Shown: positions 816-43,006 of the stretch, piece after piece
Position numbering within the stretch: the first letter of the stretch is position 1
Layout: each line of letters opens with the position of its first letter
Source: Parvularcula sp. LCG005
Lineage (GTDB): Bacteria > Pseudomonadota > Alphaproteobacteria > Caulobacterales > Parvularculaceae
Reading direction: 5' to 3'
NCBI RefSeq assembly: GCF_032930845.1
Contig: NZ_CP136758.1
Location: forward strand, 1,100,501 to 1,164,500
DNA length: 64,000 bases
The notes under the pieces: model-generated
What the model was told of the DNA's origin: nothing
What the model saw: the letters and a program-made list of their open reading frames with translations, nothing else
Database searches by the model: none
Program-made: the position numbers and the translations under genes

Positions 816-880
816 AGCGCCGTCATCCTGATGGACGGGGACGCAAATTGTTATAGGTCCTCGTCTATCATGGTGGTCTG

Positions 881-1945
881 GTGGTTTGCGGGGCGAGTGT
901 GCTTGAACTGGTAATGATGATCCCCGGCGTGGTCGGGCCGCGAAAGGGGTTTTCCCTGATCGCCGACAACCCCTATGGCAGTGTCATGATCTGGTGGCTC
1001 AGTTTTCTTATCATTCCTGTCGTGCTGGGCCTCCTCTGGACCCTCTGGAAAAAGCCGCGTTGGCGTATCCTCGCGGGGCTCCTGATGGTCCCTGCGCTGT
1101 TTGGATTTTACGCCCGCTTTATCGAGCCGCACCGGCTGGTGATTGCCGAACACACGGTCCGCATTTGCGGCGAAGGGCTGCCCGGTACGCTGACCGCAGC
1201 GGTCGTCTCCGACATGCATTCGGGCCTCTACAGTAACTCCCCGTCGATCAGCCGCATTGTCCGGACCCTGAACAATCAGGCGCCGGATTTCGTCCTGATG
1301 CCGGGAGACTTCACCAATTTTCTGGCCGAGAAACACATGGATCGCGCCATGGCGCCGTTCATGGATCTCGATATGCCGGCCTATGCGGTTCTGGGGAACC
1401 ATGATTTCGGCCTGCCGGGCCATGATGTCGAGGAACGCCTGCAGACGGCACTCGAAAAGTCAGGAGTGACGGTTCTCAATCCGGGCAGTGCCACCTTCGG
1501 GGCGCACGGCAAATATGTCCGCATCGTCGGCATGCAGGATTTCTACGAGCTGAAAGAAAACAGGCCGGACTTCAGCCCCGATCATGGTGTCAGTCCGCTG
1601 CCCACCATTCTGCTCGAACATAACCCCGATCTGATCAAGACCGGACGGACAGGGCCCTTTGACCTGTTTGTGGCGGGTCACACGCATGGGGGGCAAATTT
1701 TACTGCCCTTCATCACCTGCACCATGACGTTCGCCTGCGACACGCTGCGTTATGGGTATGAGGAGACCCCGGCGGGCAAACTGTTCGTGACATCGGGGAC
1801 CGGCATGTCCGGCGTGCCCCTGCGCTTTGGCGTGCCGCCCAAGATCGACATGGTCACGATGGAGATTGATCGCTGCCGCGTCGACGCCATCCGCAACCCG
1901 ATGCTGGCGCCCAATCTGCCGCTCAACTCACCGTCAATGGATTAG
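881..1945 (+). CDS. Membrane-anchored metallophosphoesterase
   Basis: A calcineurin-like phosphoesterase with an N-terminal membrane anchor. Two hydrophobic segments lie near residues 36-55 and 63-82. The metal-binding motifs follow in order: DMHSG, GDFTN, GNHD and GHTHGGQ. The YkuE-like subgroup, to which this looks closest, contains enzymes acting on phosphoesters at the membrane, but the substrate here is unknown. The second motif reads GDF where GDL/GDT is more usual. Start choice is uncertain: GTG at 881 gives the longest frame, but in-frame ATGs at 914 and 986 are equally plausible, and the one at 986 would start directly at the first membrane segment. None has a clear Shine-Dalgarno. 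It stands alone between convergent and co-directional unrelated genes. Confidence 0.88.
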   Translation: MVCGASVLELVMMIPGVVGPRKGFSLIADNPYGSVMIWWLSFLIIPVVLGLLWTLWKKPRWRILAGLLMVPALFGFYARFIEPHRLVIAEHTVRICGEGLPGTLTAAVVSDMHSGLYSNSPSISRIVRTLNNQAPDFVLMPGDFTNFLAEKHMDRAMAPFMDLDMPAYAVLGNHDFGLPGHDVEERLQTALEKSGVTVLNPGSATFGAHGKYVRIVGMQDFYELKENRPDFSPDHGVSPLPTILLEHNPDLIKTGRTGPFDLFVAGHTHGGQILLPFITCTMTFACDTLRYGYEETPAGKLFVTSGTGMSGVPLRFGVPPKIDMVTMEIDRCRVDAIRNPMLAPNLPLNSPSMD

Positions 1946-1952
1946 GCTTTAC

Positions 1953-3410
1953 TCAGCGTTCTGCCGCATACGCATCAAAGAAGGCTTTGGTGTGTGCGCC
2001 ATAGCGTTCGTGGATGCCAATGGATCCGCGATTGAGCCCTTGCCGGGACTGGAAGACGGACGCGGTGTTGACCGTGGCCGTGGCGCCGCTCGGATCGGCC
2101 ATTTCAGGCACATAGGCTTCGCCGATATGATCCGCGACGCGGGTCAGAACTGACTCAGGGGCGCTCACCAGCTCCTCATAGGAAATGGTCAGGATACGGT
2201 TGGGCAGGACTGCCTTCCAATGGGCCATCAGCTTTTCTTCCGTGCGGAAATGGTGGCCAATATCGCCCAGCGCCGCCGTCCATGGCAGGCCCTGCGCAAA
2301 ATATGTGCGGAAGCATGACATCGCATTGTCGCCGGCATCGCGCTGGATGTGAATGAACCGCGCCCGGGGCAGGGCCTGGGCGAGCGGTCCCAGCAGACGG
2401 GACAGGGAGAGGGACTTGTCCACGGACCGCAGCGGCGCGCCAAGCCGGTCGGCCGCCAGGCGCCTATAGGTGTCCCCAACGCGGGTCCAGCCCTCAGAAC
2501 CCTGATCAGTATCGAAAGCAGTCATCGCCTGGGCGTCAAATCCCTTCACGGGCATGAGCGCGGCCTGCGCAAAGTTGACTTCGCCTAATGCGCCGAGCCG
2601 TGGATGACGGGACAGCATCTGGGTGAGGAGGGTCGTCCCGCTGCGCGGCAGCCCGAGGATGAAAATGGGATCAGCGGTGGACGCGCTCAGGGCGAGATCG
2701 TCCATCAGCTCTGCGGTCGTGTCGCGCATCAGAACGTCGGCCCCTGCAGCGTCAACACGGCGATCATGGGCGCGATAGATCTGCAGGATACCGCCGGCTT
2801 TGCGGTAGGCATTGAACGCCCCCTCATAATCACCGGCATCGTCACGGGCTTTGCCAAGTGCATAATAGAGGCTGGCGGCGGGTTCGTCCTCGGCCATGGG
2901 CTTCTGGACTTCCCGCTCAAGACGCTCGCGCAGCGCCTCGCTCACCGGGCCCAGACTGGCGAGCGCGAACCAGGCCGATCGCGCACCCGGCCGGCTCTCC
3001 AACGTCGCTTCGAGATGGCGGCGGGCCGCGTCGAATTCGCCACGTTCTGCCGCGATCACGCCAAGCAGGTTCTGCACCGGCGCTGTGTTCTTCGCGTCGT
3101 CACCGAGCTTGTTCAGCACCGCCTGGGCTCGCTCATGCTGGCCCATCTGCGCCAGCGTCCCGGCATATTCGACGGCCAGGCCCGCATCGCCCGGGTTGTC
3201 GCGATAGATCCGCTCGGCAGCCACCAGCGCCAGCGACGTCTCCCCCAGCGGCATGGCCAGCTTCACGACATTGCGCCAGGCCGGTCCCAAAGAGCTGTCC
3301 GCGTCAAGCAGCGCCGCCATGTCGGCCGCTGCGCCATCACGGTCCCGGGCCTTGAATTTGGTCAGGAGGGAATTGGCGAGCTGTTTGGTGCGGGAGGCTT
3401 GGTCTGTCAT
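1953..3410 (-). CDS. TPR-repeat sulfotransferase
   Basis: A two-part protein of 485 residues. The N-terminal half is alpha-helical with TPR-like repeats, including AALNAYRKAG-like helices and a DAGDYEGAFNAYRKAG segment. The C-terminal half is a sulfotransferase domain. FILGLPRSGTTLLTQML is the 5'-phosphosulfate loop that grips PAPS, and RDAGDNAMSCFRTYF fits the 3'-phosphate-binding segment. Proteins of this architecture are common in alphaproteobacteria and are thought to sulfate an unknown acceptor, with the TPR part binding a partner. It is convergent with the metallophosphoesterase, whose stop lies 7 bases away, and divergent from the Lol genes. Confidence 0.9.
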   Translation of the reverse strand: MTDQASRTKQLANSLLTKFKARDRDGAAADMAALLDADSSLGPAWRNVVKLAMPLGETSLALVAAERIYRDNPGDAGLAVEYAGTLAQMGQHERAQAVLNKLGDDAKNTAPVQNLLGVIAAERGEFDAARRHLEATLESRPGARSAWFALASLGPVSEALRERLEREVQKPMAEDEPAASLYYALGKARDDAGDYEGAFNAYRKAGGILQIYRAHDRRVDAAGADVLMRDTTAELMDDLALSASTADPIFILGLPRSGTTLLTQMLSRHPRLGALGEVNFAQAALMPVKGFDAQAMTAFDTDQGSEGWTRVGDTYRRLAADRLGAPLRSVDKSLSLSRLLGPLAQALPRARFIHIQRDAGDNAMSCFRTYFAQGLPWTAALGDIGHHFRTEEKLMAHWKAVLPNRILTISYEELVSAPESVLTRVADHIGEAYVPEMADPSGATATVNTASVFQSRQGLNRGSIGIHERYGAHTKAFFDAYAAER

Positions 3411-3530
3411 CGGGCCTCCTTATCGGCATCTGCGCCAGCTTGTCAGCCGCTTTGTGTGCACGGGCCGTGAGACGAGCGTGCGTGCGGGTTCCTGCTGGTA
3501 AATTGGCGCGATAAATGGCAGTCATCAAAT

Positions 3531-4818
3531 ATGTCAGAAAATACCGTGTCGACCGGAGGCGCCCGTCCCTTCGGTGCTTTTGAATGGATGGTGGCCCGGC
3601 GTTATCTGGGGGCCACGCGCAAGGGCGGCGGCGTCAGCCTGATCACATCGATCGCGCTGACCGGTATCGCCCTCTCCGTCATGGTCCTCATCGTCGTCAT
3701 GTCGGTGTTCCAGGGATTTCGGGTCCAGATTCTCGATCAACTGTTGAGCGTCAACGGTCACGTCTTTGTCGAATCGGGCATGGGCCCCATGACCGAGTAC
3801 GAAGAAGAGGCGGTGGCGCTGGCGAAGGTGCCGGGGGTTGAACGGGTGACGCCCGTCCTGCGGCTTGAGGCCTACATGGTCGGCCCCTCTGGCCAGAAGG
3901 CGTCCCTGATCTGGGGGATTGCACCAAATGATCTGAACCAGATTGAAGAGGTCACTGGCGACAGCCATCTGCGCGGCGGACGGTTCGACGGGTTTGGTGA
4001 AGGCAAGAATGGCGGCAATGAAATCGCCCTTGGATGGGGCCTTGCCAATGCGCTGGGCGTGCGCTCGGGCGATGTGGTGACACTGATCACTGCTGGCGGC
4101 GCAGAGACGGCGTTCGGCCGCTCACCGACGACGCAGAAAGATTATCGCGTTGGCGCGGTCTTCCAGATCGGCAATTCCTTCTACGATCAGTACTACGCCT
4201 ATATGCCGCTGGAACAGGCGCAGATCTTCGGCCGCAAGAAAGGGCAGGTCAGCGAGATTGAAGTGCGCGTTGCCGAGCCGCTTGAGATTGACCGTTATCT
4301 TCCCTCCATTCGTTCGGCCGCCCCCAACTACGCGCTGTCGGACTGGCGCGACCGGAACAGCGATATTTTCGGTGCCTTGCAGCTTGAGCGCGGCATGATG
4401 CGGATCATTCTTCTGATGATCGTCATGGTCGCGACGATGCTGATCATTTCCGGTCTCGTCATGCTCGTGAAGGACAAGCGCAGCGACATCGCCATTATGC
4501 GCACCATGGGTATGACGAAAAGCGGGGTGATGCGCGTCTTTCTGCTCGTCGGCGCGACGATCGGCATCACCGGCACGGTGATCGGCACCATTCTGGGGGC
4601 GTTGGTCTCGACCAATATCCAGACGATTGAGCGGGCCATCTCCAAGCTGTTCGGTGTCGGCTGGAACCCCGAGATCTACTTCCTAGCGCAGATCCCGTCC
4701 GTGTTCGAATGGCAGGAAGTCAGCGTCGTGGTGCTCTTCACCCTTGTCATGTCCTTCCTGTTTTCCGCCTACCCCGCCTGGCAGGCGTCCAAACTCGATC
4801 CGGTAGAGGCGCTGCGTT

Positions 4819-4826
<8 letters not shown>
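3531..4826 (+). CDS. Lipoprotein-releasing ABC transporter permease (LolC/LolE family)
   Basis: Inner-membrane permease of the Lol system, which extracts outer-membrane lipoproteins from the inner membrane and passes them to LolA. The 431-residue length, one membrane segment near residues 37-57, a periplasmic MacB-like domain of about 220 residues and three C-terminal membrane segments (about 288-310, 340-365, 397-420) are the LolC/E layout. The last residues overlap the start of lolD by 8 bases, so the two are translationally coupled. Only one permease gene is present, as is usual in alphaproteobacteria, so LolC and LolE cannot be told apart and the permease probably works as a homodimer. 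Confidence 0.93.
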
Positions 4827-5507
<681 letters not shown>

Positions 5508-5511
<4 letters not shown>

Positions 5512-6908
5512 CGCGCCTCGATCTTCAGGGGCACGCCGCCACGTGGGCGCATCGTCACGGCCAGATAGGGCTCTGGAGGCTGCGCGCCCGGCATGGAAAA
5601 CCGTAAAGACGGGGTGAGGGTGGCGAGGATCGCCACCGCTTCCATCATCGCAAAGCGCAGGCCGATGCAGACCCTTGGACCCCCGCCAAAAGGCAGCCAC
5701 TGATATTTGTGATAATCGCTGGCGCGCTCCGGCAGGAACCGGTCCGGATCAAACGCCCACGGATCAACCCACAGGGCCTGATGCCGGTGCATCGGATAGA
5801 CGCCGACACTGACATGGTCGCCGGGGCCAAAATGATGGCCACCCAGTTCGACCGGCGCCGTTATCCCTCGCGGAATGATCGCCACCGGCGGATAAAGCCG
5901 CATCGCTTCCCGTACCACCCGGTCGTGCAGTGCAAGGCGGGGCAGGTCTTCGGCGGTGGGCGCTCGGTCGCCCAGCACTGATGTCGCTTCCTCGGCCAGC
6001 GCGTCCTGCCAGTGCGGGCTCTGGGCCAGTATCGACAGCGTCCACGCCAGGGCGACGGCGGTCGTCTCATGGCCCGCCCCGACAAACGTCAGGGCATTGT
6101 CCACCAATTCTTCCGCATTCAGACCAGCACCTGTCTCGGGATCACGCGCCGCAATCAACAGGCCCATCAGGTCGTCCTGTTCTGCGCCCTCAGCGAGAGG
6201 CACAGCCATCCGCCGCTCCACAATGTCGGTGGCCATGGCGCGCAGTTCGGCCACCGCCGCCATGCCCTTCTTGTAGCCGGGTGAAAACAGCCGTCGTGGC
6301 AGAAACGAATCAAAAACCGGAAACAGGTCGTAAAGCGTGAACCGGCCAATAGAGTGCGCGAAGATGGCGATGTTCTCGGCCACGTCCTCCTGTCGGAAGC
6401 CTTCGCCCGGCTGGGCGAGGAGCACATCGCTGATCACATCGAAGGTGGCGCGAGTTGTTTCTAGCGCGATGTTGACCGTCTCACCGCGCTGGGCCAACAG
6501 GCGGTCACGACTGGCAAGACCCGCCCGTGAAAATGTCGGCACGAGCGATGCGAGCGCACGCGCCCGAAACGCGGGACTGGCCGCCTTTCGCTGGGTTTTC
6601 CATGTCTGTCCTTCGGCCGTCAGCAGGCCATCGCGCAGGGCGGGTTTCAGGACTTTCTGCGCCAGCGGTGACCGGCCACAGAACGTGCCTTCTCCCTGCA
6701 GCAGTTTCTGGACAAGGTCCGGATCCATCACCTGGGCGAACCACCGGCCACCCATCCGTGCCTTGATGATAGGGTCGCGGAAATAGTCCTCCGTGTACAT
6801 GGACACCGGATTTTTCAGCGAGGCGCGCAGGCGCCTGATCGGTCCTGTGCCAGAGGGCATGGGCGGCACGGTCCGCGGTTTCAGGGGGACGCTGGCGCTG
6901 GCGGTCAT
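5508..6908 (-). CDS. Cytochrome P450 (first of a tandem pair)
   Basis: Haem-thiolate mono-oxygenase of about 466 residues from the ATG at 6908, which has a GGAG upstream; the longer frame to 6974 adds an unlikely Met-rich leader. Diagnostic parts are the I-helix oxygen-binding motif AGHETTA, the K-helix ExxR in REAMRLYPP, and the haem loop FGGGPRVCIG with the axial Cys near residue 414. There is no fused reductase, so electrons must come from a separate ferredoxin/reductase, and none is encoded nearby. It lies 69 bases downstream of a clearly paralogous P450 on the same strand, presumably one transcript. Substrate unknown; fatty-acid, terpene or hydrocarbon oxidation would all fit. Confidence 0.94.
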
Positions 6909-12445: not shown

Positions 12446-13222
12446 ATGAAACACCTGAAACGCGCGGCCCTCTTGGCCAGCACCATGATACTGGGGACGG
12501 CAGGGCTGAGCAGCGCTCAGGCTGGCGTCATGACATTTTTCAACGACAGCGCGGGATTTGAGGCGGCATCGGTCGGTGAAGATCTGGACAATATCAACTT
12601 CGACGACATCACATCCGGCACGAATATCGCTGGCCTGGTCCTGAAAGGCGTCACACTGACCAGCCCCGATGGGAATACGCTTGATGTTGTCGATGCCGAT
12701 GACACATTCACCCCTGGGGATACGGCAGGGATCAACAGCCTGCTGGCGACGAGCGGATCGATGATTCTGTCTCCGGGTGGCATTGAACTCGTGCCGGGCA
12801 GCGCGCTGGCCGAACGGGACAGTCTTGAGATCACGTTTGCAGAGGCGGTCTCAGCTTTTGCCATCGATATCCTGTTCCAGTCCTATGACCTTGCGCCATT
12901 CGTTTCCATTCGCGCATTCAATGCCGAGGGCACACGGATTTATTTCGAGAATGTCCCAGGCAGCGGGCTCGGCGGCGGTGCGCCGGCGGACAATGTCTTC
13001 TTCGGCATTGTCTCAGACGATATGAGCACGAACATTGCTCGGATCGTCATTACAGAGAGTGACGGGAATGCCAGCTTCCCCGACTCGAATATCGGGTTCG
13101 ACTCGATTCAGTTCTCCAGTCTTTCAGGCGATGCGGTTCCCGTTCCCGCAGCGTTGTGGCTGTTCATTGCGCCACTTGCGGGTGCCCTTGGACTCCGCCG
13201 CGCAAAACGGAAAATCGCCTGA
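12446..13222 (+). CDS. Exported protein with VPxPA-CTERM sorting signal
   Basis: A secreted protein of 258 residues. It has an N-terminal signal peptide (basic start, hydrophobic core, cleavage near SAQA-G), a beta-rich extracellular middle part, and a C-terminal tripartite tail: VPVPAALWL, a hydrophobic stretch, then the basic RRAKRK. That tail is the alphaproteobacterial variant of the PEP-CTERM signal, which is recognised by an exosortase and directs surface attachment or secretion. No exosortase is in this window. The GGAGAAGCGAG upstream is a good ribosome-binding site. Likely roles are surface or matrix protein; function unknown. Confidence 0.85.
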   Translation: MKHLKRAALLASTMILGTAGLSSAQAGVMTFFNDSAGFEAASVGEDLDNINFDDITSGTNIAGLVLKGVTLTSPDGNTLDVVDADDTFTPGDTAGINSLLATSGSMILSPGGIELVPGSALAERDSLEITFAEAVSAFAIDILFQSYDLAPFVSIRAFNAEGTRIYFENVPGSGLGGGAPADNVFFGIVSDDMSTNIARIVITESDGNASFPDSNIGFDSIQFSSLSGDAVPVPAALWLFIAPLAGALGLRRAKRKIA

Positions 13223-31182: not shown

Positions 31183-31256
31183 GCGGGTATAGCACAATGG
31201 TAGTGCAGCAGCCTTCCAAGCTGAATACGCGGGTTCGATTCCCGCTACCCGCTCCA
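31183..31256 (+). tRNA. tRNA-Gly (TCC), island integration site
   Basis: A 74-base tRNA. Acceptor GCGGGTA (31183-31189) pairs with TACCCGC (31246-31252), then discriminator T and an encoded CCA (31254-31256). The anticodon loop CTTCCAA gives TCC at 31215-31217. The last 18 bases plus one more (31239-31257) recur exactly at 40367-40385, so the tRNA 3' end is the attachment site of the island that follows, and integration rebuilt an intact tRNA. Confidence 0.97.
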
Positions 31257-31257
31257 G
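31239..31257 (+). repeat. attL: tRNA-Gly 3' end (19-bp direct repeat)
   Basis: The sequence TTCCCGCTACCCGCTCCAG is identical to 40367-40385 and partly to 42517-42529. It sits 200 bases upstream of the integrase start, as expected for attL of a tRNA-targeting island. Confidence 0.88.
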
Positions 31258-31370
31258 CCCTCCCTTCCCAAACAGCCCCAGAAAGTCTATAAAACCCTTG
31301 GAAATCCGAGGGATTTGTGCCCTCGATCGTCCGAGAATGTCCCTATTCTTCCCGCTGCATCCGGGGCCCT

Positions 31371-31434
31371 TGGGGGCCACATCGCGGGGCCAGGGCATTT
31401 CGGGCAATTGGACTGGCCCCCACGTGGGGGCCAC
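31371..31434 (+). promoter_or_regulatory. Repeats upstream of integrase: 20-bp palindrome plus direct repeat
   Basis: TGGCCCCCACGTGGGGGCCA at 31414-31433 is a perfect palindrome ending 24 bases before the integrase ATG. TGGGGGCCAC occurs at 31371-31380 and again at 31425-31434. A third TGGGGGCCA lies at 40299-40307, about 60 bases inside the right att copy. Such repeats could be integrase or excisionase arm sites, or an operator controlling the integrase gene. Confidence 0.55.
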
Positions 31435-31457
31435 GAGCTGGGAAAGGACCGAGGGCC

Positions 31458-32687
31458 ATGCCGCTGACAGATGTTGCAATCCGGAATGCCAAACCGCGCG
31501 AAAAGCCTTATAAGGTAGGCGACACTCTGGGCCTGTTCCTGCTGGTGCAGCCCTCGGGCGGAAAGCTGTGGCGGGTCAAATACCGCATCGACGGCAAGGA
31601 GAAGAAGCTGGCGATCGGCATCTACCCTCAGGTCGGTCTCGCGGAGGCGCGGCGCAGGCGTGATGCCGCCCGCGAGTTGGTAGCCGCTGGCAAGGATCCC
31701 GGCCGCGAGAAGCAGCGCGAGAAGGTGCGTTCGCGCATTCAGGCCGAGACAACTTTTGACGCTATTGCCGCTGAGTTCTGCCAGAAGCGGCGGCGCGATG
31801 GCCAGAAGGCCTGGGCTGTCAGCACGGCCACACGCAGCGAATACCTGCTGTCGCTGCTCAAGGGATCGATCGGCAAGCTTCCCATCACCGATATAGAACC
31901 TGCCGACGTGTTGATTGCCGTCCGCAAGATCGAGCGCAAAGGCCAGCTGGAAAGCGCCCGCCGCACCCTGCAGCTTGCCGGCGCGGTGTTCCGCTATGCG
32001 GTCGCTACCGCCCGCCTCGCTTCGGACCCCACGCGCGACCTGCGCGGCGCGCTGACCGCGCCCACCGTCACCCACTACGGCGCGATTATTGACCCCGCGC
32101 GTGTGGGCGCGCTGCTGCGCGCCATCGACGGCTATGAAGGCCAGCCGATCACCAAGCTGGCGATGCAATTGGCCCCGCATGTTTTCGTCCGCCCCGGCGA
32201 GCTGCGCCATGCCGAATGGAGCGAATTCGATTTCGAAGGGGCGCTGTGGACCATAGCGGCGGGCAAGACCAAGATGCGCAAGGATCACCTCGTCCCGCTC
32301 TCACGCCAGTCGATTGCGATCCTGGAAGACCTCCATGCCCTGACCGGTCCCGACGGCTATGTTTTCCCTTCGATCCGCTCCCGCAAGCGCCCGATGAGCG
32401 ACAACACGATCAACGCAGGCCTGCGCCGCCTCGGCTACTCAACAGATGAAATGACCGCCCATGGCTTTAGGGCCATGGCCTCTACCCTGTTGAACGAAAG
32501 CGGCAAGTGGCACCCCGACGCGATCGAGCGCGCCCTGGCCCATGGCGACAGCGACAGAATCCGCGCCGCCTATCATCGCGGAGCCCACTGGAAGGAGCGC
32601 GTAGCCATGGCGCAATGGTGGAGTGACCACCTCGACCAGCTTCGCAAGGGCGCGGAGGTTGTGCCGATCAAGGCGGGGAAGCGGTGA
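31458..32687 (+). CDS. Tyrosine-recombinase integrase (P4-like, DUF4102)
   Basis: Site-specific recombinase of 409 residues that inserts and excises the island at tRNA-Gly. The ATG at 31458, after GGACCGAGGGCC, opens the family-typical start MPLTDVAIRNAKPREKPYK. The N-terminal DUF4102 arm-binding domain (YRIDGKEKKLAIGIYPQVGLAEARRRRD) is followed by the catalytic domain with Arg in RPGELRHAEW, the HGFR box and the nucleophile Tyr in RAAYHR. All core residues are present, so the enzyme looks active. The longer frame to 31317 is not coding. A GTG overlapping its stop opens only a 20-codon frame, which I do not call. Confidence 0.95.
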   Translation: MPLTDVAIRNAKPREKPYKVGDTLGLFLLVQPSGGKLWRVKYRIDGKEKKLAIGIYPQVGLAEARRRRDAARELVAAGKDPGREKQREKVRSRIQAETTFDAIAAEFCQKRRRDGQKAWAVSTATRSEYLLSLLKGSIGKLPITDIEPADVLIAVRKIERKGQLESARRTLQLAGAVFRYAVATARLASDPTRDLRGALTAPTVTHYGAIIDPARVGALLRAIDGYEGQPITKLAMQLAPHVFVRPGELRHAEWSEFDFEGALWTIAAGKTKMRKDHLVPLSRQSIAILEDLHALTGPDGYVFPSIRSRKRPMSDNTINAGLRRLGYSTDEMTAHGFRAMASTLLNESGKWHPDAIERALAHGDSDRIRAAYHRGAHWKERVAMAQWWSDHLDQLRKGAEVVPIKAGKR

Positions 32688-33084
32688 TCGGTCTGAAGAA
32701 ACCGCAACTCGTCTATGATCCGCAAACGATCGAAGAATTGTGGTGATATCTGATAACTTTATCGCGGAGTGACTTGTCCACAACTCGCCGCAAGCCCGCA
32801 CAACTCGTCGGCGGGTCATTTGTGCACAAACCGTGTTTCCTTCCATACATCAATTAGATGCGACCCGAATTCGCGGGGTAGGGTGTGCTCACTGTTCCCC
32901 AACTGCGAGTTCGGATTCGATGCCTCTGACGCTTTCAGCTTGGAGCTCAAGGACATTTGCCCAGAGCGGAGCCTCCGGCAGGCTGGGCTTCAAAAACCTG
33001 GATCGGGTTTTGGCGGATTAACGGCAAACATTATGTCAGCCGGCCCTTCATTCATATGCGGCGCATCTGATAGTAAAGACTACC
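32688..33084. other. 397-bp gene-free gap with TTGTnCACAA repeats
   Basis: No convincing gene lies between the integrase and the giant STAND gene. TTGTCCACAA at 32774-32783 and TTGTGCACAA at 32820-32829 are two near-identical palindromic words, and a close relative, TTGTGTACAA, lies just after the STAND gene at 39704-39713. They may be operators or DnaA-box variants. The rest shows nothing I can name, though the promoter of the STAND gene should be here. Confidence 0.5.
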
Positions 33085-36000
33085 ATGGGCGATGAAATTG
33101 CAGCAGATTCCAGTTTTGCCATCGATAAGGTGCGAGCATCGAAGGCTGGGCACGCGTATCACGAGGCTTGGGCCGCGCGAACGGCGCTCGAACTTCTGCC
33201 GCCCTCAACGGACCTCAATGCAATCACGCTGGAAGGTTTCGATGAGCAGGACGAGCAGGAACTGGGGATCGGCGCCGTCGAAATCGCTGACCTCGTGCGG
33301 TATCATGGTGGCACCGACGTCGCCCGGTCGCAGCGAGTAACCGTAGTCCAGTTCAAATACTCGATCGCCAGCGCCGACAAAGCAGTTCGAGCGGCGGATC
33401 TTGCATCGACACTCGTCAAATTCGCTATCACCGATACCGAGCTTCGCGCCGCTTACGGCGACGAACATGTAGAAAGGGTCGTCCGGTATGAGTATGCCAC
33501 GAACCGGCCGATCAATTTCAATCTAGGGCTGGCGATCAACGCAGTCATCGCTGGATCCGATGTCGATGGTGACGTGAGCCGGCAAGCAGGGCAAATCGCC
33601 AACGCCCTGAAAGACTATCCTCACGAAGCCGCTGGCCTGCTGCGGCGATTGAACCTCGTCGGCAGCCAGGGGAGTCTGGTCGATGCAGAGCGGTTGGTTT
33701 CCGCGACACTCGCCGCTTGGAGCGAGCCTGGCGATCCCGACGCAGAAAAGCGGCTGCTAAAACTGCGAAACCTCATCAGGCTTAAGGCCGGTCCCGGCAG
33801 CGAGACCGACAAGCGGGTAGATCGCGTCGCGGTCTTGGCTGAGCTGGAAGTCGACAGCGAAGACCGTCTCTATCCGACACCCGACGCCTTCCCTGAGGTA
33901 CGGGATGTCGTTCAAAGAGATGTGCTCGCCGAAATCGTATCGCGGGCACGGGAAACTGGTGCGCCGCTCATCGTGCATGCTGCCGGCGGCATGGGCAAGA
34001 CCGTGCTGATGCAGGGGATCGCCGATGAGCTGCGCTCGGACGGCCCCGTAGTCCTGTTCGATGGGTTCGGCGCGGGCAGATGGCGCGATCCGGCCGACGG
34101 TCGGCATTTGCCCGAGCGAACATTGGTGCATCTTGCAAACCTGTTCGCCGGAGAAGGTCTGTGCGACATCCTACTTCCGATCGCTGACGTCACAAGCCTG
34201 CTAAAGGCCTTTCGCCGACGTCTGGCCCAGTCCGTGGCCACGGCCCGAAACACACATCCCGATGCTCACCTGTCGCTGGTCTTGGATGCCGTCGACCATG
34301 CCGGACTGGCCGCACAAGAAACTGGGACGTTATCCTTCGCGCATCTTCTTTTGCGTAGCATCAGCGTCAATCCGATCGATGGCGTTCGGGTGATCGGATC
34401 GTGCCGGACCGAGAGGCTGGAGATCGCTGTCGGCAACACCAGTTACCGTGAATTCCCCGTGCCTTTGTTCTCGGATGCCGAGGCGCGGACGCTCATCGCA
34501 CGGCGCGTACCGGATGCGTCCGGAGACGAAATTGCCGCGTTGCTCACGCGGTCCGGCCGAAATCCCCGGTGTCTTGACAGCCTGCTTACGAACGGGCGCC
34601 CGTTTGATCCGTTGCAATTCCCGGATGCCCGCGGTGAACCGCATGACGTCCTCGATGCCTTGCTCCTGAAGCGGCTCGAAGATGCTCGAAACACGGCGCT
34701 GTCGCGCGGAGCAAAGGATGCGGATATCGACCTTTTGCTGGCCGGCATTGCCTTGCTCGCACCCCCTGTTCCGATCGAAGAGCTTGCCGCGGCGCACGGA
34801 CTTATCGGGGAAGAGGTCGAGAGCTTCGCCGCAGACTTAGCGCCGCTGCTTGAAAGGACGCCGCACGGCCTGGTGTTTCGCGACGAGCCGACAGAAACCC
34901 TCATCCGCTCGAGATACGGAACTGACCAGGCGAGCCGAGACCGGGTCATCTCCGCGCTGCAGGCACGGCAGCTTACATCAAACTACGCTGCTAGGGCGCT
35001 GCCCGCATTGCTGACATCTATTCGCGATGCAGATCAGCTTATCCGCCTTGCCTATGATCTCCGTGTTCCGGCCGGCGCGTCGCAGGTTAGCACGAGGGAT
35101 ATCCGCCTAGCCCGGATCACGGCTGCAATCGCCCTCGCTAGCGAGCTTGGCAAACGCGACGAACTGCTGAAGCTCTTGCTAGAAGCGTCGCTCGTTGCCG
35201 CTGGTCATGAGCGGTCGGATCGATTCCTCTATGAGCATCCCGACCTCGCAGCCGTCTCTGCCGATCCCGAGGCGCTGAGACGGCTCGCTGTCACTAATGT
35301 CGGGTGGCCGGGAGGAAAGCACTCCGCAATGGCGCTGGCGAGCGCTTTCGCGGGCGATCATGATGAGGCTCGGCGCCACGCGCGCAGGGCCATCGATTGG
35401 TACAATTGGTCAGCGCAAACGAGGCGAAACACTTGGTTCAACAAAGCGAGCGCATCACGAAGCTGGGATGATGTCGGCTTTGCCTATGTCGAAATGCTCG
35501 CAGGCAATGACGTCCGCGTAGCCGAGTTCATTGCTCGCAAGGGCGAAGGCGAGGCCTTCGTAAAATTCCGCGAACTGTTTGACCTGCTTGAGCGGCACCA
35601 AGCGACAATCCATGCCCCACCGGAACGTGTCGTTTCGAGGTTGCCAGGATGCCGGCTTGGGTCGCGAGCTCTGTTCGCGGCCGCGCTCCAATTCACCGAA
35701 CGCGAGAATACCCGAGAACAGCGCGTGCTTAAGGCAATGGCCGCCGCGCCGCCGGTCTCTGACCACAGCGCGAGCCTGGCGATGGCGAGTGTGCTCGCCG
35801 GAGCGAGAGCTACCGACCTCGGAATGATCACGGAGGGCATCGCGCTGATTGAAGGCGCAGGGCTGAAGGCCCAAACGATTTACGACTTTTCGAGCTATCA
35901 CCCGATCGATCGCACTGTCCACGTGAGCTTGGCCGCAGCTGGTGTGAAAGCCGCTTTGCGTGGGAAACCGCCTACATTAATGGACATCGCCCCGTCCGAG

Positions 36001-39000
36001 CTTATCAACCTCGTCCCGAAAAGTGCCCGCAATCGCGGCCCGGCGGCATTCTCGCGCGCTCTTTCGCAGAAACTGGCAGAACCGAAATACAATGGTGCCA
36101 AGCCACGGCTGAAGCGCCGGAGCTATGTCGATGGCAAAGTCCGCACAGAATATTCTCGTGCTCTGAGTGGGCGGATCAATCCGCTTCTTCGTTATGCGCA
36201 AGACATCGCGAGCATTGTGCGCCCACCTGCTGGAGAGACGCGGGCCGGGATACTGAATGTAGCCTTCGATCGCTTGGTAAGCGATGTCGAACAGGCCTCT
36301 AACTACCCCTATCGCGACGGGAAGGCCTATCTCACGCAAACGGGATTCCTAGCGATTTTCTATGTGGCCGATGCACTGGGGGCGATAGATCCCGGGCTTG
36401 CCAAAAAGATGGTGGATTGGCTGGCAACCGCTCCTGGTTTGTACGCTCCCGACCTGACGGACGTAGTGGCTCGACTATCGCGGAACAGTGAATGCCATGA
36501 TGCCGCACTTACCCTCGCTAGTTTTGTCGAGCGCAAAATACAGCTTGATACGGATGTGGGGTCGCGGGTCACCGCCTATGGGAGTCTCGCGCGAGCGGTG
36601 TGGCGGGTCAGCACCCACGAGGCTGCCGCGTATTGCAGGCGAGCGCTTGATCTGGCGGAAGCCATCGGATCGGACGATTTCGATCGTACCAACCATCTGC
36701 TCGAACTAACGGGTCACTACAAAGGCGCGGAGTTATCGGCAAAGGCTGCTCACACCCTCGCTCGGATATTGGAGCTCAATCAGGGCGAAGACGGACGATT
36801 TCCATGGATCGAATATGCCCAAGCTTTGGTGCCGATCGCTGGCCGGAGCACGCTGGCTATGTTGGCGCGATTGGACGACCGCGATGTCGCGGGGCTGAGT
36901 TACTCGCTTGGCCCCACTCTGACGGTCCTCACACGTCAGTCGAAACTGCCCGCGGCGACAGCGGCCGCGCTGTTTGGCCTGGCACCGCCTGGGGAGGCTT
37001 GGACTTGGCACACTTCGGATTTCGCATCCGAGGCGCTCCCTCTCATCTCCCAAGTTCACCACGAATGGTTCTTCAATCTGCTGCTCGTTGAAATCGATCG
37101 TGATGATCAACTCACGCCGAGCCGTGAAACCATCGAAGGCCTTCATCGTCTCGCTGAAAAGACTCTTCCCGCCACATCGGCGTCACGAATCCGGATCGAA
37201 GGACTGCTTCGCCGCCGCAGATCGCAAGCCGAAACGCCAACGCCGGCAGCTCCGCCGTTGGCGCCTCCTGAAGTGCCCCATGCCTATCCCGTCGACTTGA
37301 CTGATCCGGACGAGATCGATCGGCAGATTCTGAGCGAGGAGTTGGATCATTCCGGACGGCGTTGGCCAGTTCGAAAATTGCTCCAACTTGCGCGGCGAGC
37401 CTCTACCCCGGCCGAGCGCTTGGGTTTCGTGCAGGCCGTCGTCGAGGCCGGCAATGCGACTCTCGCGGACAAGGTCAGCGCTCTGGACGACCATCTCGAG
37501 GACTGGTGCAGGACTTCTGCGGCAATGCGTGACGCGCTGCCCGAGCTAGGCCTTCGCCTCGCGGCAAAACATGCCGGGGAATTGGCAAACTCCAGTTCGG
37601 ACGCTTGGACCGCTTGGCGCGGATTGGAGATGTGTTTCCGCGCCGATCGGACTGCTCTAGTCGAACACGCGATAGCCGGACTTCGTGGCGTGGCCGACGA
37701 GCTGGGAGGGGACGCGTGGCTTGCCCTAGCGGCTCGCCTAGCTGCCAGGGCAAGCGATCAAGCGATTGCGGAAGGTTTGGAACGCTTTCTTGCCATCAGC
37801 GCCGAAACGCTCCCGCCTGAAGTCGGCGACGGCCCTTGGAGCGACCATCTGTCCATGCCAGCAGATGAAGCGGACGTCGTAGCTGGATTGGTATGGGCTC
37901 GATTGGGTCACCCCGTGGCGGCTATGCGCTGGCGGGCAGCGCATGCTGTGAGACGCCTCGCGGAAATCGACCGCTTCGATGTACTCGACAAGCTCATTGC
38001 CCGCTTTGATTCAGGCTCAGGGCTGCCCTTCAGTGATGCAAAGCTTCCGTTCTACCAGATGCATGCACAGCTTTGGTTGTTGATTGCGCTGGCGCGGGTG
38101 AGCAAATGCAATCCCGGAGGACTAGCCTCACATCGGCAATTTTTCGAATTGGTCGCACTGTCATCCGAGTTTCCTCACGTTGTGATGCGCGCGTTTGCGG
38201 TCGATGCGTTGCGAGAGATCTCGCGGTTGCTCGATCCCACGGAGAAGCAGGTGCTGCTAGGCGCAATATCCGCGGTCAATGTATCACCGTACGATCACAA
38301 TCCGAAGACCAGCTATGACGAGTTTCGGTACATCGAGAGGCCGATTTCGTCGCCTCAATCCGACAATGCGTTTCACCTCGACTATGATTTCGAAAAGTAT
38401 CAGCTGGAGTGGCTGTGCAGGGTGTTCGCCCAGCCCGGATGGACGGTAAAGGACCAGATCAGCACATGGGTGCGCCGCTGGGACGAGTCCGTGAGCGGTA
38501 TGTACGAGTGCCCTCGCACCTCGAAGTACAATGAAGAGTGGTCATCCCGCTATGTTCCGAACCGTGACCCCTATGGCGGCTATCTTGGCTGGCATGCGCT
38601 GATGCTGGTCGCGGGTGAACTTCTCGGTTCGATGCCGGTGGTCGGCGACGACTGGCGCGGAGACGCCTGGTCGGCCTTCTTGAACGATTACCGGCTGTCG
38701 CGTGATGATGGACTGTGGCTTTCCGATCTGACCGATCTTTTCCCGCTCGACTTGGAGAAAGAAACCGACATCAAGATGCCGGAACGCGGCGACAAGCGAA
38801 GCACCACGCGGGACGACGGACGGGCGCTGGCCCCGTTGCTGGGCATTAGCGATGGGAAGCTGGCTGCTGAATGGATGCCCGTGTCCGCACGTTGGTCAAT
38901 CGGGAAACATACAACTCTAACCATCCGAAGCGTCCTAGCCGATAAGAATGATGCTCGCTCAGCAGTTATGGCTTTGCTGTCCGAAGAGCAGTTCTTTCGC

Positions 39001-39684
39001 TGGCTGCCAGACGACGAAGATGAAATCAGCCGCCATTTCGGCAATGAGGGTCACAGCGTTCAACCTTGGGTGGCCGTGATGCCCCATACCGAGCGCCAAC
39101 TCGATAGGCATGACCCATATGGCGCGAGCGCGGCCCTTGACCGGCCTTTCCCAACGGAATTCACCCGACAAGTTCTGGGCGTTGATCCAGCCGACGCGGT
39201 TATTCGCCAGTGGACGGATGCCACTGGGCCGCAATTCTTTGCGGAAGCCTGGGGGGTAGAAGGAGGGCAAGGTGAACACGCATGGAGCATGACGGGATCG
39301 CGGCTATTCGTGAGGGCTACGTCATTGAAAGCGTTGCTGAGCGCCGTTGACCGAAACCTCGTCGTTTTCATCAAGCTGCAGAAGTACCATAAAGGGAAAT
39401 CAAACGACTTCGCCGGCGACACAAGCCCTTTCACGCATCGCTCACTCATCGTGACTGTTAGCAAGAACGGAACCGTCTGGCTGCCTCAGCGCTTGTCGGC
39501 CAAGGCGAAGGGCGCACTAGATGCGCTTGATGTCGATCGACGCCGGGATTTCTATGCACGGTTTCGATCCATCGCTAACCTCCCGGATGAGTGGCTAGCT
39601 CGCCGACAACGGGCTACGCAGATTGACGCTGAAAGTTTGCGGGTATTCATCGAAGGCCTGACACCGGATGACGCAGAGCTGTGA
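33085..39684 (+). CDS. Giant nuclease-STAND NTPase, Avs-like antiphage candidate (2199 aa)
   Basis: By far the largest gene in the window and the main cargo of the tRNA-Gly island. Residues about 20-230 resemble a Cap4/DUF4297-type PD-(D/E)xK nuclease: the helix AGHAYHEAWAARTALELL, then E66/D69 in VEIADLV and the Q89-F-K91 strand end in VVQFKYS. A STAND ATPase core follows, with Walker A GGMGKT (301-306), Walker B LVLDAVD (398-404) and the arginine-finger-like GSCRTERL. After about residue 650 the protein is a very long helical-repeat solenoid up to a distinct C-terminal part. This is the layout of Avs proteins, which sense phage proteins with the tail and cleave DNA with the nuclease. No known Avs partner gene is adjacent, so it probably acts alone. 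A different STAND function remains possible. Confidence 0.82.
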   Translation: MGDEIAADSSFAIDKVRASKAGHAYHEAWAARTALELLPPSTDLNAITLEGFDEQDEQELGIGAVEIADLVRYHGGTDVARSQRVTVVQFKYSIASADKAVRAADLASTLVKFAITDTELRAAYGDEHVERVVRYEYATNRPINFNLGLAINAVIAGSDVDGDVSRQAGQIANALKDYPHEAAGLLRRLNLVGSQGSLVDAERLVSATLAAWSEPGDPDAEKRLLKLRNLIRLKAGPGSETDKRVDRVAVLAELEVDSEDRLYPTPDAFPEVRDVVQRDVLAEIVSRARETGAPLIVHAAGGMGKTVLMQGIADELRSDGPVVLFDGFGAGRWRDPADGRHLPERTLVHLANLFAGEGLCDILLPIADVTSLLKAFRRRLAQSVATARNTHPDAHLSLVLDAVDHAGLAAQETGTLSFAHLLLRSISVNPIDGVRVIGSCRTERLEIAVGNTSYREFPVPLFSDAEARTLIARRVPDASGDEIAALLTRSGRNPRCLDSLLTNGRPFDPLQFPDARGEPHDVLDALLLKRLEDARNTALSRGAKDADIDLLLAGIALLAPPVPIEELAAAHGLIGEEVESFAADLAPLLERTPHGLVFRDEPTETLIRSRYGTDQASRDRVISALQARQLTSNYAARALPALLTSIRDADQLIRLAYDLRVPAGASQVSTRDIRLARITAAIALASELGKRDELLKLLLEASLVAAGHERSDRFLYEHPDLAAVSADPEALRRLAVTNVGWPGGKHSAMALASAFAGDHDEARRHARRAIDWYNWSAQTRRNTWFNKASASRSWDDVGFAYVEMLAGNDVRVAEFIARKGEGEAFVKFRELFDLLERHQATIHAPPERVVSRLPGCRLGSRALFAAALQFTERENTREQRVLKAMAAAPPVSDHSASLAMASVLAGARATDLGMITEGIALIEGAGLKAQTIYDFSSYHPIDRTVHVSLAAAGVKAALRGKPPTLMDIAPSELINLVPKSARNRGPAAFSRALSQKLAEPKYNGAKPRLKRRSYVDGKVRTEYSRALSGRINPLLRYAQDIASIVRPPAGETRAGILNVAFDRLVSDVEQASNYPYRDGKAYLTQTGFLAIFYVADALGAIDPGLAKKMVDWLATAPGLYAPDLTDVVARLSRNSECHDAALTLASFVERKIQLDTDVGSRVTAYGSLARAVWRVSTHEAAAYCRRALDLAEAIGSDDFDRTNHLLELTGHYKGAELSAKAAHTLARILELNQGEDGRFPWIEYAQALVPIAGRSTLAMLARLDDRDVAGLSYSLGPTLTVLTRQSKLPAATAAALFGLAPPGEAWTWHTSDFASEALPLISQVHHEWFFNLLLVEIDRDDQLTPSRETIEGLHRLAEKTLPATSASRIRIEGLLRRRRSQAETPTPAAPPLAPPEVPHAYPVDLTDPDEIDRQILSEELDHSGRRWPVRKLLQLARRASTPAERLGFVQAVVEAGNATLADKVSALDDHLEDWCRTSAAMRDALPELGLRLAAKHAGELANSSSDAWTAWRGLEMCFRADRTALVEHAIAGLRGVADELGGDAWLALAARLAARASDQAIAEGLERFLAISAETLPPEVGDGPWSDHLSMPADEADVVAGLVWARLGHPVAAMRWRAAHAVRRLAEIDRFDVLDKLIARFDSGSGLPFSDAKLPFYQMHAQLWLLIALARVSKCNPGGLASHRQFFELVALSSEFPHVVMRAFAVDALREISRLLDPTEKQVLLGAISAVNVSPYDHNPKTSYDEFRYIERPISSPQSDNAFHLDYDFEKYQLEWLCRVFAQPGWTVKDQISTWVRRWDESVSGMYECPRTSKYNEEWSSRYVPNRDPYGGYLGWHALMLVAGELLGSMPVVGDDWRGDAWSAFLNDYRLSRDDGLWLSDLTDLFPLDLEKETDIKMPERGDKRSTTRDDGRALAPLLGISDGKLAAEWMPVSARWSIGKHTTLTIRSVLADKNDARSAVMALLSEEQFFRWLPDDEDEISRHFGNEGHSVQPWVAVMPHTERQLDRHDPYGASAALDRPFPTEFTRQVLGVDPADAVIRQWTDATGPQFFAEAWGVEGGQGEHAWSMTGSRLFVRATSLKALLSAVDRNLVVFIKLQKYHKGKSNDFAGDTSPFTHRSLIVTVSKNGTVWLPQRLSAKAKGALDALDVDRRRDFYARFRSIANLPDEWLARRQRATQIDAESLRVFIEGLTPDDAEL

Positions 39685-40366
39685 TGAGCAGAAAGCGAAC
39701 CGCTTGTGTACAAATCCGATTGTGGCCTTGGCAGGTCGCTTCGACCTTGGCGCTTAGCTCATGTGACCCAACGTCTGCTTTCCTGATTTTCAGCTCCAGT
39801 CCGGACCGTCTAGAACGTCCGCAATCTCGGTAATAGCGGGGAGCCGACCCTGCGCCTTACGAACGGCGGGTCCCGGCGTAACGTGCCGATGCCAAGCGGG
39901 TTGTCAGACGACAGTTTTGTCCCAGAACCGGCAATTGAGACCTGTTGGTCCCCTGCGCGCGGCGATCCAGGGGTCCACGTTTCGATACTTCGCTTTCCTC
40001 GTCGAGGTGGGGGCTGGGCTCTAGCCGAAAAGTCCGAAACATAGGCACACCCTACGCGACAGGTCGCAATTTTATCACTCTGACTTAAAACCCAAAAACG
40101 GCAAAAATGGGTGTGGCAGCTTCTCAATCAAATCCGACTTGCCAATCGGATCCGAGAAACTGGACGATATATCGCTGAAAAAACGTCACAACTCTATCAC
40201 GGTTGGCTACCCGAACCTGATTGACGATTCCCAACTTCGAATCCGAACCGGACTGTCTCAAGTTTTCCACATGCATCCCGCAAGTTTAGGGCGCCGGTTG
40301 GGGGCCAAGAAAATTCGACGTGCATAAATTTCTCCTCGATTTTAGATAGATATGCCAACGTTTGGC
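39685..40366. other. Gene-free right end of the island
   Basis: About 680 bases with no reliable gene; ORFs here lack start sites and coding character. It contains TTGTGTACAA (39704-39713) close to the STAND stop and TGGGGGCCA (40299-40307) close to the right att copy. A 6-bp hairpin near 39940-39985 is weak. The sequence is consistent with an island end region holding recombination sites. Confidence 0.55.
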
Positions 40367-40385
40367 TTCCCGCTACCCGCTCCAG
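40367..40385 (+). repeat. attR: 19-bp copy of the tRNA-Gly 3' end
   Basis: TTCCCGCTACCCGCTCCAG matches 31239-31257 base for base and is followed by sequence unrelated to that after the tRNA. It closes a 9.1-kb segment holding integrase plus STAND gene, so that segment is the integrated element. Confidence 0.88.
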
Positions 40386-40640
40386 ACTTTTCCTTCGACC
40401 GGACCGCATGCTCGACCAACCTCAAGATTACCGGCGCCGTTTGAGCTATTTTCAATCGCGACGGCGCGTCACCATCGTCTTGGACCGGCCTTTGACGTTA
40501 TCCTCGGCCCTTAAAGATATGTTGCAAGCCGATTAATCCTCAATCTGCCGAGCGATGAGATGGATGAAATGACGTCCGGACGGCTGGATATCGACCTATC
40601 CGCATCATAACCATTTTGGGCAGTGCAATTGCCGAAGCCA
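40367..40640 (+). repeat. Long imperfect direct repeat, copy 1
   Basis: From the att copy to about 40640 this segment aligns with 42510-42785 at roughly three-quarters identity (estimated by eye). A 38-base stretch at 40561-40598 is identical to 42703-42740 and contains the palindrome CGTCCGGACG. A second near-identical stretch surrounds TTTTGGGCAGTGCAATTGCC. Both copies run into the same reading frame (ITILGSAIAE) of a toxin-like fragment, after which they diverge. Confidence 0.75.
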
Positions 40641-41095
40641 ATGCAACGGGGGCAGATGATATATGGTATCAGCCTTATATCCCATTTATGGAAAGCATAC
40701 GCCTTGGGGCGGCTGCAAGTCGAGCTGCCATGCGGCAAGCTGGCAGAGCCGCGGCCGAGAGGCTAGCTCTCGGTACCGTCGCGAGAATGATCGGCAATGA
40801 CGGTCGTGGAAGATATAGGACACCCGGCGGAAGAGAGATCGCCCACGGCAAAAATTCAGAAGGCTATGTCAAGGATAAGGGATGGACGCCCGAGCAAATT
40901 GATGAGGTGTTAGACAATTCGGCGGAGGCCTATGAGAGCCAGAAGACCAATCATTGGACAGGGAAATGACAGACAACGCAGACTGACAAGAACGGCAATT
41001 GGATTGTGACCGATGAATCGGGCCGAGTCACGCAATTGGGCGAGCGCGGCAACGTTCGGAAACCAATGCCAGAGCCAAAACGTGAAAGCGACTAG
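40568..41095 (+). pseudogene. Broken polymorphic toxin tip with colicin-E5-like RNase domain
   Basis: An open frame without a start (ITILGSAIAEANATGADD...) leads into GRYRTPGGREIAHGKNSEGY, then VKDKGWTPEQIDEVLDN, the typical opening of the colicin E5 RNase domain. The frame is cut by TGA at 40967-40969 and continues unchanged with QTDKNGNWIVTDESGRVTQL to a TAG at 41093-41095, which matches the domain's last strands. Colicin E5 RNases cut the anticodon of tRNAs with queuosine. The lost 5' end and the in-frame stop show it is dead, unless the TGA is read through. The next gene overlaps its final stop and is the likely immunity gene. Confidence 0.65.
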
Positions 41096-42371: not shown

Positions 42372-42509
42372 GATCGCAGCCGGGTCGTAAGTCTGCGTTT
42401 GTGCTCAACGAAGCTTGACCCGCTGTACCCTAGAGGTCCAAAGGTTCTGGGTACAGAAAAGATGCACTAAGGTGCTTATACTACAAAGAAATTGATCTAT
42501 CGGAGTGGA

Positions 42510-42785
42510 TTCCCCTCTACCCGCTCCAGTTTTCCTGCGACCGGTCCGAATGCTCGACCCACCGTAAGGCTGCTTGCGCCGCTTCAGCTATTTTCAGTCG
42601 CGACGGCACGTCGCCATCTTCTTCGACGGGCCCTGGATGGTATTCTGTGCTCTCCAAGATGCGTTCCACGTCGAGTAACCCTCAGTATGCCAAGCCATGA
42701 TATGGATGAAATGACGTCCGGACGGCTGGATATCGACCTACCGGCGTCACAACCATTTTGGGCAGTGCAATTGCCGAAACCAATG
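42510..42785 (+). repeat. Long imperfect direct repeat, copy 2, with degenerate att
   Basis: Begins with TTCCCCTCTACCCGCTCCAG, a changed copy of the tRNA-Gly end in which CTACCCGCTCCAG (42517-42529) is exact. The following 250 bases align with copy 1 at 40386-40640. The second copy therefore arose by duplicating an att-plus-flank unit of about 2.1 kb, or by two related insertions. Confidence 0.75.
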
Positions 42786-43006
42786 CGGCGGAGACGGGCA
42801 TGATCTGGGACGAACCCTGCACCCCGTTTGGGGAGATGATCTGCAATCGCTCGGCTGCGAATAACCCAACCAAGAACCTGGACGATGTGGGGTATAAAGA
42901 GCATGTCATGGAACCCAACGTCCGAGGTTCACATCGACGTAGACCAGGCGTCGCCGCGTCTGATATAAATCCGCATCTACCTATTCGCTCAAAAACGACG
43001 GACTGA
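42758..43006 (+). pseudogene. Second toxin-tip remnant
   Basis: Open frame without a normal start, beginning with the same GSAIAE block as the broken toxin at 40568 and then running into an unrelated tip. Near 42920-42970 both the reading frame and the next frame look coding (EVHIDVDQASPR in one, INPHLPIRS in the other), so a frameshift is likely. It ends two bases before the next remnant, as toxin and immunity genes do. Family not assignable. Confidence 0.45.

Follow-up and report, generated by a model that had tools for sequence, protein, structure and literature searches.

An Avs3-branch nuclease-STAND-sensor protein without detected Avs3b on a tRNA-Gly element of Parvularcula sp. LCG005

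Introduction

AVAST type III, the described system closest to the locus reported here, comprises two genes, avs3a and avs3b. Its member SeAvs3 (2092 amino acids (aa); Protein Data Bank (PDB) entry 8dgc, entitled 'Avs3 bound to phage PhiV-1 terminase') tetramerises on binding viral proteins, and its paired N-terminal nucleases are activated and cut DNA, according to the part of PMC11291478 available to us. The available part of PMC12931631 likewise describes the nucleases of Avs1-4 as killing the cell upon recognition of the terminase, the portal or another phage protein. Here we describe a 2199-aa protein of Parvularcula sp. LCG005, encoded on contig NZ_CP136758.1 within a 64,000-nt stretch that is the whole of the DNA analysed around it (the window), and carried by a 9.1-kb element at a tRNA-Gly gene. 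It resembles SeAvs3 in the order of its parts, in its nuclease and STAND motifs, in a homologous C-terminal sensor and in length, but differs in its low sequence identity, its longer tail and the lack of an avs3b gene at the locus.

We propose, with a probability of about 0.68, that this protein is a solo member of a deep Avs3 branch and that, on binding the large terminase of a phage, it oligomerises and cleaves DNA without Avs3b. What is new is the Avs3 clade in which no Avs3b was detected, the Avs3 family itself being known; neither a description of a solo Avs3 branch nor a published role for Avs3b was found in the literature searched, which covers few subscription papers.

Results and Discussion

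Homology to SeAvs3 and domain organisation

The reading frame opens with ATG and runs for 2199 codons with zero internal stops; its G+C content at codon positions 1/2/3 is 0.68/0.48/0.64, and the gene has a single match within the 3,084,878-base LCG005 genome. PADLOC, a run of which had been suggested in an earlier reading of the DNA letters without database searches (the sequence-only reading), returns Avs3a (E 3.1e-204) as its sole model at E≤1, and the NCBIfam Avs3a model NF041816 matches with E 4.3e-234. In a phmmer search of PDB sequences SeAvs3 is the sole match at E≤1 (E 2.3e-134), aligned over residues 16–777, 1156–1298 and 1542–2105 of the LCG005 protein. The Avs-type nuclease-STAND-sensor plan recognised in the sequence-only reading is borne out by the PADLOC assignment and by this near end-to-end homology, which at the same time gives a place to what had been taken for an unplaced branch. 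The protein had been placed at the large end of Avs sizes, but full-length relatives have 2042–2212 aa, so that 2199 aa is not unusual for the family.

The N-terminal and C-terminal parts each find SeAvs3 independently. Residues 1–260 match SeAvs3 residues 7–248 (phmmer E 5.7e-15), and a Foldseek search with a model of residues 1–480 ranks 8dgc first (E 7.2e-26), ahead of Avs4 in third place (1.8e-6) and Avs5 in 17th (9.9e-5), in keeping with the nuclease fold that had been proposed for this end; the refuting outcome named in the sequence-only reading therefore did not arise. The model is mediocre, with a mean predicted local distance difference test (pLDDT) score of 58.9, and root-mean-square deviations from the search carry no meaning because the arrangement of domains is not predicted in it. 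The sensor and tail (residues 1541–2199) match SeAvs3 over 1549–2105 (E 5.4e-44), and the one other hit is to an unrelated enzyme (E 0.54). In the STAND part the Pfam NACHT family is matched with E 2.9e-4, below its gathering score. EcAvs4 (8dgf) and EfAvs5 (9jap) are also STAND immune sensors, but their weaker Foldseek matches are to the N-terminal half only, and when PDB sequences are searched with the whole protein or the sensor neither appears at E≤1; from the structure titles and the available part of PMC12931631, EcAvs4 was solved bound to portal and Avs5 has a Sir2 effector.

Table 1. Features of the LCG005 locus and of the host gene transfer agent (GTA) cluster. Coordinates are window positions, except those prefixed C1, which refer to the LCG005 genome; ORF, open reading frame.
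Feature	Position	Strand	Basis
Avs3-branch nuclease-STAND-sensor protein, 2199 aa	33085..39684	+	PADLOC Avs3a; NCBIfam Avs3a; PDB 8dgc
Residues 1–260, predicted Cap4/DUF4297-like PD-(D/E)xK nuclease (E50, D69, Q89xK91)	33085..33864	+	phmmer; Foldseek; conservation
Residues 261–780, STAND NTPase and region after it; Walker A GGMGKT 301–306, Walker B LVLDAVD 398–404	33865..35424	+	Pfam NACHT (weak); SeAvs3 alignment 16–777; conserved columns
Residues 781–1540, fast-evolving, presumably helical spacer	35425..37704	+	Only 1156–1298 aligns to SeAvs3; conservation
Residues 1541–2110, sensor region homologous to SeAvs3 about 1500–2050	37705..39414	+	phmmer; conservation
Residues 2111–2199, C-terminal tail, 89 aa	39415..39681	+	Alignment; tail-length comparison
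tRNA-Gly (anticodon TCC), integration site	31183..31256	+	ARAGORN
attL, 3' end of tRNA-Gly	31234..31257	+	Repeat search
Tyrosine integrase with arm DNA-binding domain	31317..32687; likelier start 31458	+	Pfam PF13356, PF22022, PF00589; NCBIfam PRK09692 domain, below cut-off
attR, copy of tRNA-Gly 3' end, last 19 bp exact	40362..40385	+	Repeat search
RcGTA-like gene transfer agent cluster	C1:652417-665464		Pfam family for 10/10 ORFs scanned
Host GTA large terminase, full-length	C1:652417-653736		

Conservation was counted on an alignment of 23 Avs3-family proteins, a column being scored as conserved at 95% or more of filled rows. The nuclease residues D69 and K91 reach this level, as do G302, G304, K305 and D401 of the STAND module, and E50, D69, Q89 and K91 are invariant in an 8-row alignment. 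The Walker motifs and D69, Q89 and K91 thus lie where they had been read from the sequence. Of the two acids then assigned to the nuclease, D69 stands, but E66, although present, varies in the family, and E50 is the better conserved. We conclude from homology that the N-terminal nuclease is real, with a predicted activity, and that the protein, with its SeAvs3 homology, its nuclease with catalytic residues, its STAND module and its putative sensor, is by sequence a member of the Avs3a family in the broad sense.

In the sensor 17 of 556 columns are conserved, compared with none in the two spacer segments 781–1100 (0/262) and 1321–1540 (0/196), as would be expected if the target were shared. Two Avs3 relatives, from genome G750 and from a Shewanella baltica plasmid (loci L055 and L063), have the STAND module, the sensor and Avs3b with an N-terminus that lacks the nuclease motif, a possible effector swap.

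A well-supported clade within Avs3

The 23 aligned proteins come from plasmid records (19 matches), from three genome draws (matches in 2/62 genomes of the family, 4/385 of the class and 8/398 of the phylum, the LCG005 genome being counted in each) and from one genome contig. Later, 8 usable loci, of which 6 belong to the clade described below, were gained from two IMG/VR contigs and from an additional draw of 398 genomes, 10 of which had a match; another draw of 369 genomes added none. Five genome matches (G658, G600, G1315, G1226 and G834) were dropped as fragment, broken or weak before the Avs3b and tree counts; G658 is a 558-aa frame at a contig edge, whose stretch (L018) was searched and gave no Avs3b. 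Among plasmid hits, H5 and H6 were dropped because insertion sequence genes underlie the match and H12 because it equals H13 in strain and score; H14, H17 and H19 were dropped as well, H18 (L064), apparently the same record as G321 (L050), was counted once, and L080 and L081 repeat L078 and L079.

Trees were built from four segments, and in all of them the 2199-aa protein falls in a clade that excludes the other Avs3 proteins. This clade has 8 members, or 7 in the nuclease and STAND trees, for which the Paracoccus member offers no or too little sequence. Support for this clade is 99/98 in the nuclease tree and 100/100 in the STAND, middle and sensor trees, and again 100/100 in a 29-row tree that leaves out Paracoccus and Halomonas, both of which are placed by the middle and sensor trees. 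Since this split appears alike in the trees of the nuclease, the STAND module and the sensor, there is no indication of a sensor swap. The branch foreseen in the sequence-only reading therefore exists as a well-supported clade in which no Avs3b was detected, but it lies inside Avs3 and is not a separate Avs.

Within the clade the 2199-aa protein is 66.5–77.8% identical to four members and 26.4–31.3% to three. Its closest relatives, on plasmids of J. lividum HAMBI_1919 and A. fabrum 1D132 and on a Paracoccus hibiscisoli contig, share 66–78% identity, the same long tail and the lack of a detected Avs3b; the two plasmid members are annotated 'hypothetical protein'. They differ from LCG005 in their setting, which is a plasmid, or for Paracoccus a 5.2-kb contig with the C-terminal part only, rather than a tRNA-Gly island. 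The tail after the last aligned block has 84–104 residues in the 2199-aa protein (own value 89) and its six closest relatives, 74 and 59 residues in the clade members G236 and G1523, 30–37 in the other five members and 26–41 in the 17 proteins outside the clade. A long tail is thus found in some clade members only and cannot by itself explain the missing Avs3b.

No Avs3b detected at the clade loci

Canonical avs3a-avs3b pairs, such as those of Klebsiella variicola pKPN692_2 and J. lividum EIF2 p356839, are homologous to the LCG005 protein along most of the length of Avs3a, but they belong to a separate clade and their avs3b overlaps the end of avs3a, whereas nothing follows the LCG005 gene. 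A profile built from four annotated or overlapping downstream genes detected Avs3b at none of the 8 clade loci but at 12 of the 15 others, and a 12-row profile gave the same result for these 23 loci together with L078 and L079. With the later loci (L078, in the clade, none; L079, canonical, present; five further clade members, none; G1242, present) the totals become 0/14 in the clade and 14/17 elsewhere. The canonical clade accounts for 12/12 and a third clade for 2/5, Avs3b being present in G704 and Rhizobium BT03 and not detected in Tistrella, G094 and G492. More than 1 kb of downstream sequence was available at 12 of the 14 clade loci, and only 301 and 292 nt in Paracoccus and G765. These counts do not represent independent events: a single loss or a single gain could be enough to produce the split, and the trees carry no root.

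That the gene has no accessory partner, as the sequence-only reading held, agrees with the search for avs3b in the window and with the count for the clade, and it sets the 2199-aa protein outside AVAST type III as strictly defined by its two genes. From this distribution we infer that the protein would act without Avs3b. Fusion of Avs3b into the clade proteins was considered and rejected, hidden Markov model hits in the 23 Avs3 proteins having E values of 0.2 or worse and hhalign probabilities in three segments being at most 0.24%. A sequence search of solved structures with Avs3b itself gave nothing at E≤0.1. In Tistrella mobilis plasmid pTM1 (L064, 5974–13881) the Avs3 relative has no detectable Avs3b, and there is a 4-nt overlap between its stop and the next gene, which is annotated as an ATP-binding protein and is a possible replacement partner.

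Proposed mechanism and alternatives

By analogy with SeAvs3, the protein would lie inactive in the cytosol as long as no tailed phage is producing large terminase. Once folded, this terminase would be bound by the C-terminal sensor (about residues 1541–2110), the STAND module would bind ATP and oligomerise, presumably as a tetramer, the N-terminal Cap4-like nuclease domains would pair and cut DNA non-specifically, and the infected cell would be killed before phage release, that is, by abortive infection. The sequence-only reading had left the target as an unknown phage protein; because the sensor is homologous to that of SeAvs3, which was solved bound to phage terminase, large terminase becomes the default, and we consider it the likeliest ligand.

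Several observations weigh against this interpretation. Overall identity to the canonical Avs3a of K. variicola, taken as a proxy for SeAvs3, is just 22.4% over 2009 aligned positions. The score against NF041816 is 780 bits, far short of the equivalog cut-off of 2800 bits. In the genome draws, where single stretches are scored, this cut-off was likewise reached in 0/385, 0/398 and 0/369 genomes, the best score being 2748 bits. An AlphaFold2 model of residues 1541–2199, made with four alignment rows, failed (mean pLDDT 44.9), so that a shared sensor fold is argued from sequence only. The 64-kb window holds no Avs3b-like frame.

The alternative that survives best, which we regard as unlikely, keeps the same machine but supposes that the branch has drifted to sense portal, an unusual class of terminase or an unrelated phage protein. 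The low identity to canonical Avs3a would allow this, the absence of Avs3b and the longer tail of the closest relatives could accompany a change of ligand, and Avs5 systems may have several ligands (available part of PMC12931631). Against it stand the sensor homology to SeAvs3 over 1549–2105, the lack of a sequence match to the portal-bound EcAvs4, and the conserved columns that the sensor has in excess of the two spacer segments.

It is also rather improbable that the protein alone is inert and that the role of Avs3b is filled by an unlinked gene of the host or the element. Avs3b is present at 14 of the 17 other Avs3 loci, so its function there is presumably important, and in J. lividum HAMBI_1919 a whole-length match to the PADLOC candidate-defence family PDC-M06B (L023, 7455–7979; E 4.7e-75) lies 21 nt upstream of the clade member. 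Five neighbours scanned at three clade loci (J. lividum HAMBI_1919, A. fabrum and A. tumefaciens) nevertheless have no family in common, the LCG005 element has no further convincing gene, and a search of the LCG005 genome with NF041817 found no Avs3b, a weak negative in that control genomes gave nothing either. Decay to a STAND protein with a regulatory role or no nuclease activity is hardly credible for an open frame of 2199 codons that keeps its catalytic residues and has 66–78% identical relatives in distant hosts.

The tRNA-Gly element

The 9.1-kb element with its own integrase, described in the sequence-only reading, was recovered from the tRNA-Gly(TCC) gene, the Pfam integrase matches (integrase E 4.8e-18, arm domain E 1.4e-25) and a second copy of the tRNA end. 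The sequence at the likelier integrase start is MPLTDVAIRNAKP. The att repeats had been called perfect, which holds for 19 bp (40367–40385) but not for the full 24 bp, where there are 2 mismatches. This 19-mer is the longest exact match to the tRNA-Gly elsewhere in the window, the longest on the opposite strand being 11. The 2199-aa gene is the only convincing cargo, as had been supposed: of the element's ORFs besides it and the integrase two were scanned, and 32769–33095, just upstream of the gene, has no Pfam or NCBIfam family, while 39810–40127 on the reverse strand has no Pfam family.

The element has a G+C content of 0.598, compared with 0.597 for the window, and an AT-rich stretch (0.515) begins beyond attR, at about 40–46 kb. 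A weaker copy (75%) of the tRNA-Gly 3' end occurs at 42506, and a 276-column repeat, 82% identical, is found at 40369–40644 and 42513–42786, each copy opening with the tRNA-Gly end (CTACCCGCTCCAG). We take this repeat for traces of older or tandem integrations past attR.

No empty site was seen in 8 stretches from 7 genomes of the same genus, in which DNA aligns only at the tRNA-Gly and over about 20 adjoining bases; at the protein level the matches there are an efflux pair in G054 and, in G056, its distant Avs3. On contig C24 of G056 (L039) a distant Avs3a-Avs3b pair (3–6060) is accompanied at 12626–12672 by a copy of the tRNA-Gly 3' end (47 bp, 94%), which suggests two independent acquisitions of Avs3 by tRNA-Gly islands in this genus.

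A search of 50,697 phage records gave no match. One clade member does sit on a 17-kb IMG/VR contig (L078, 1537–15385), where it adjoins an integrase and a phage replication initiation protein (phrog_2969, E 1.3e-176). The small genes of this contig look inovirus-like by eye, and inovirus is a putative label; a filamentous phage needs no terminase, so that an Avs3 passenger would presumably not harm it.

The host gene transfer agent

The LCG005 genome contains one match to Terminase_6N, a 440-aa large terminase with both Pfam domains that heads an RcGTA-like cluster. Behind it come genes for portal, protease, capsid, connector and tail proteins and for a 1266-aa protein with GTA_TIM (E 2.4e-145). 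The GTA terminase is matched in 9/9 other genomes of the genus, in G051 and G056 only over about residues 10–162. In these two genomes (G051:C1, L077; G056:C8, L076) the first ~160 residues of the GTA terminase run in frame into what, by eye, resembles the C-terminal part of the GTA tail protein. The arrangement looks like a deletion of most of the cluster that would lie between the two. G056 is also the genome that carries the Avs3a-Avs3b pair.

We predict that in LCG005 a terminase sensor coexists with a host terminase that is tolerated, silent or policed. A broader proposal, to which we hold only tentatively, is that the clade is a deep Avs3b-independent lineage of terminase-sensing, NLR-like immunity whose large protein, perhaps helped by its longer tail, does by itself the job of avs3a and avs3b together, beside a host GTA terminase that is tolerated or policed.

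A natural branch seemingly without Avs3b offers a clean comparison for what Avs3b does. Since the host GTA cluster has its own full-length large terminase, self-tolerance of the proposed terminase sensor is directly testable, and direct experiment can address how such a sensor would spare a cell in which gene transfer agents are made.

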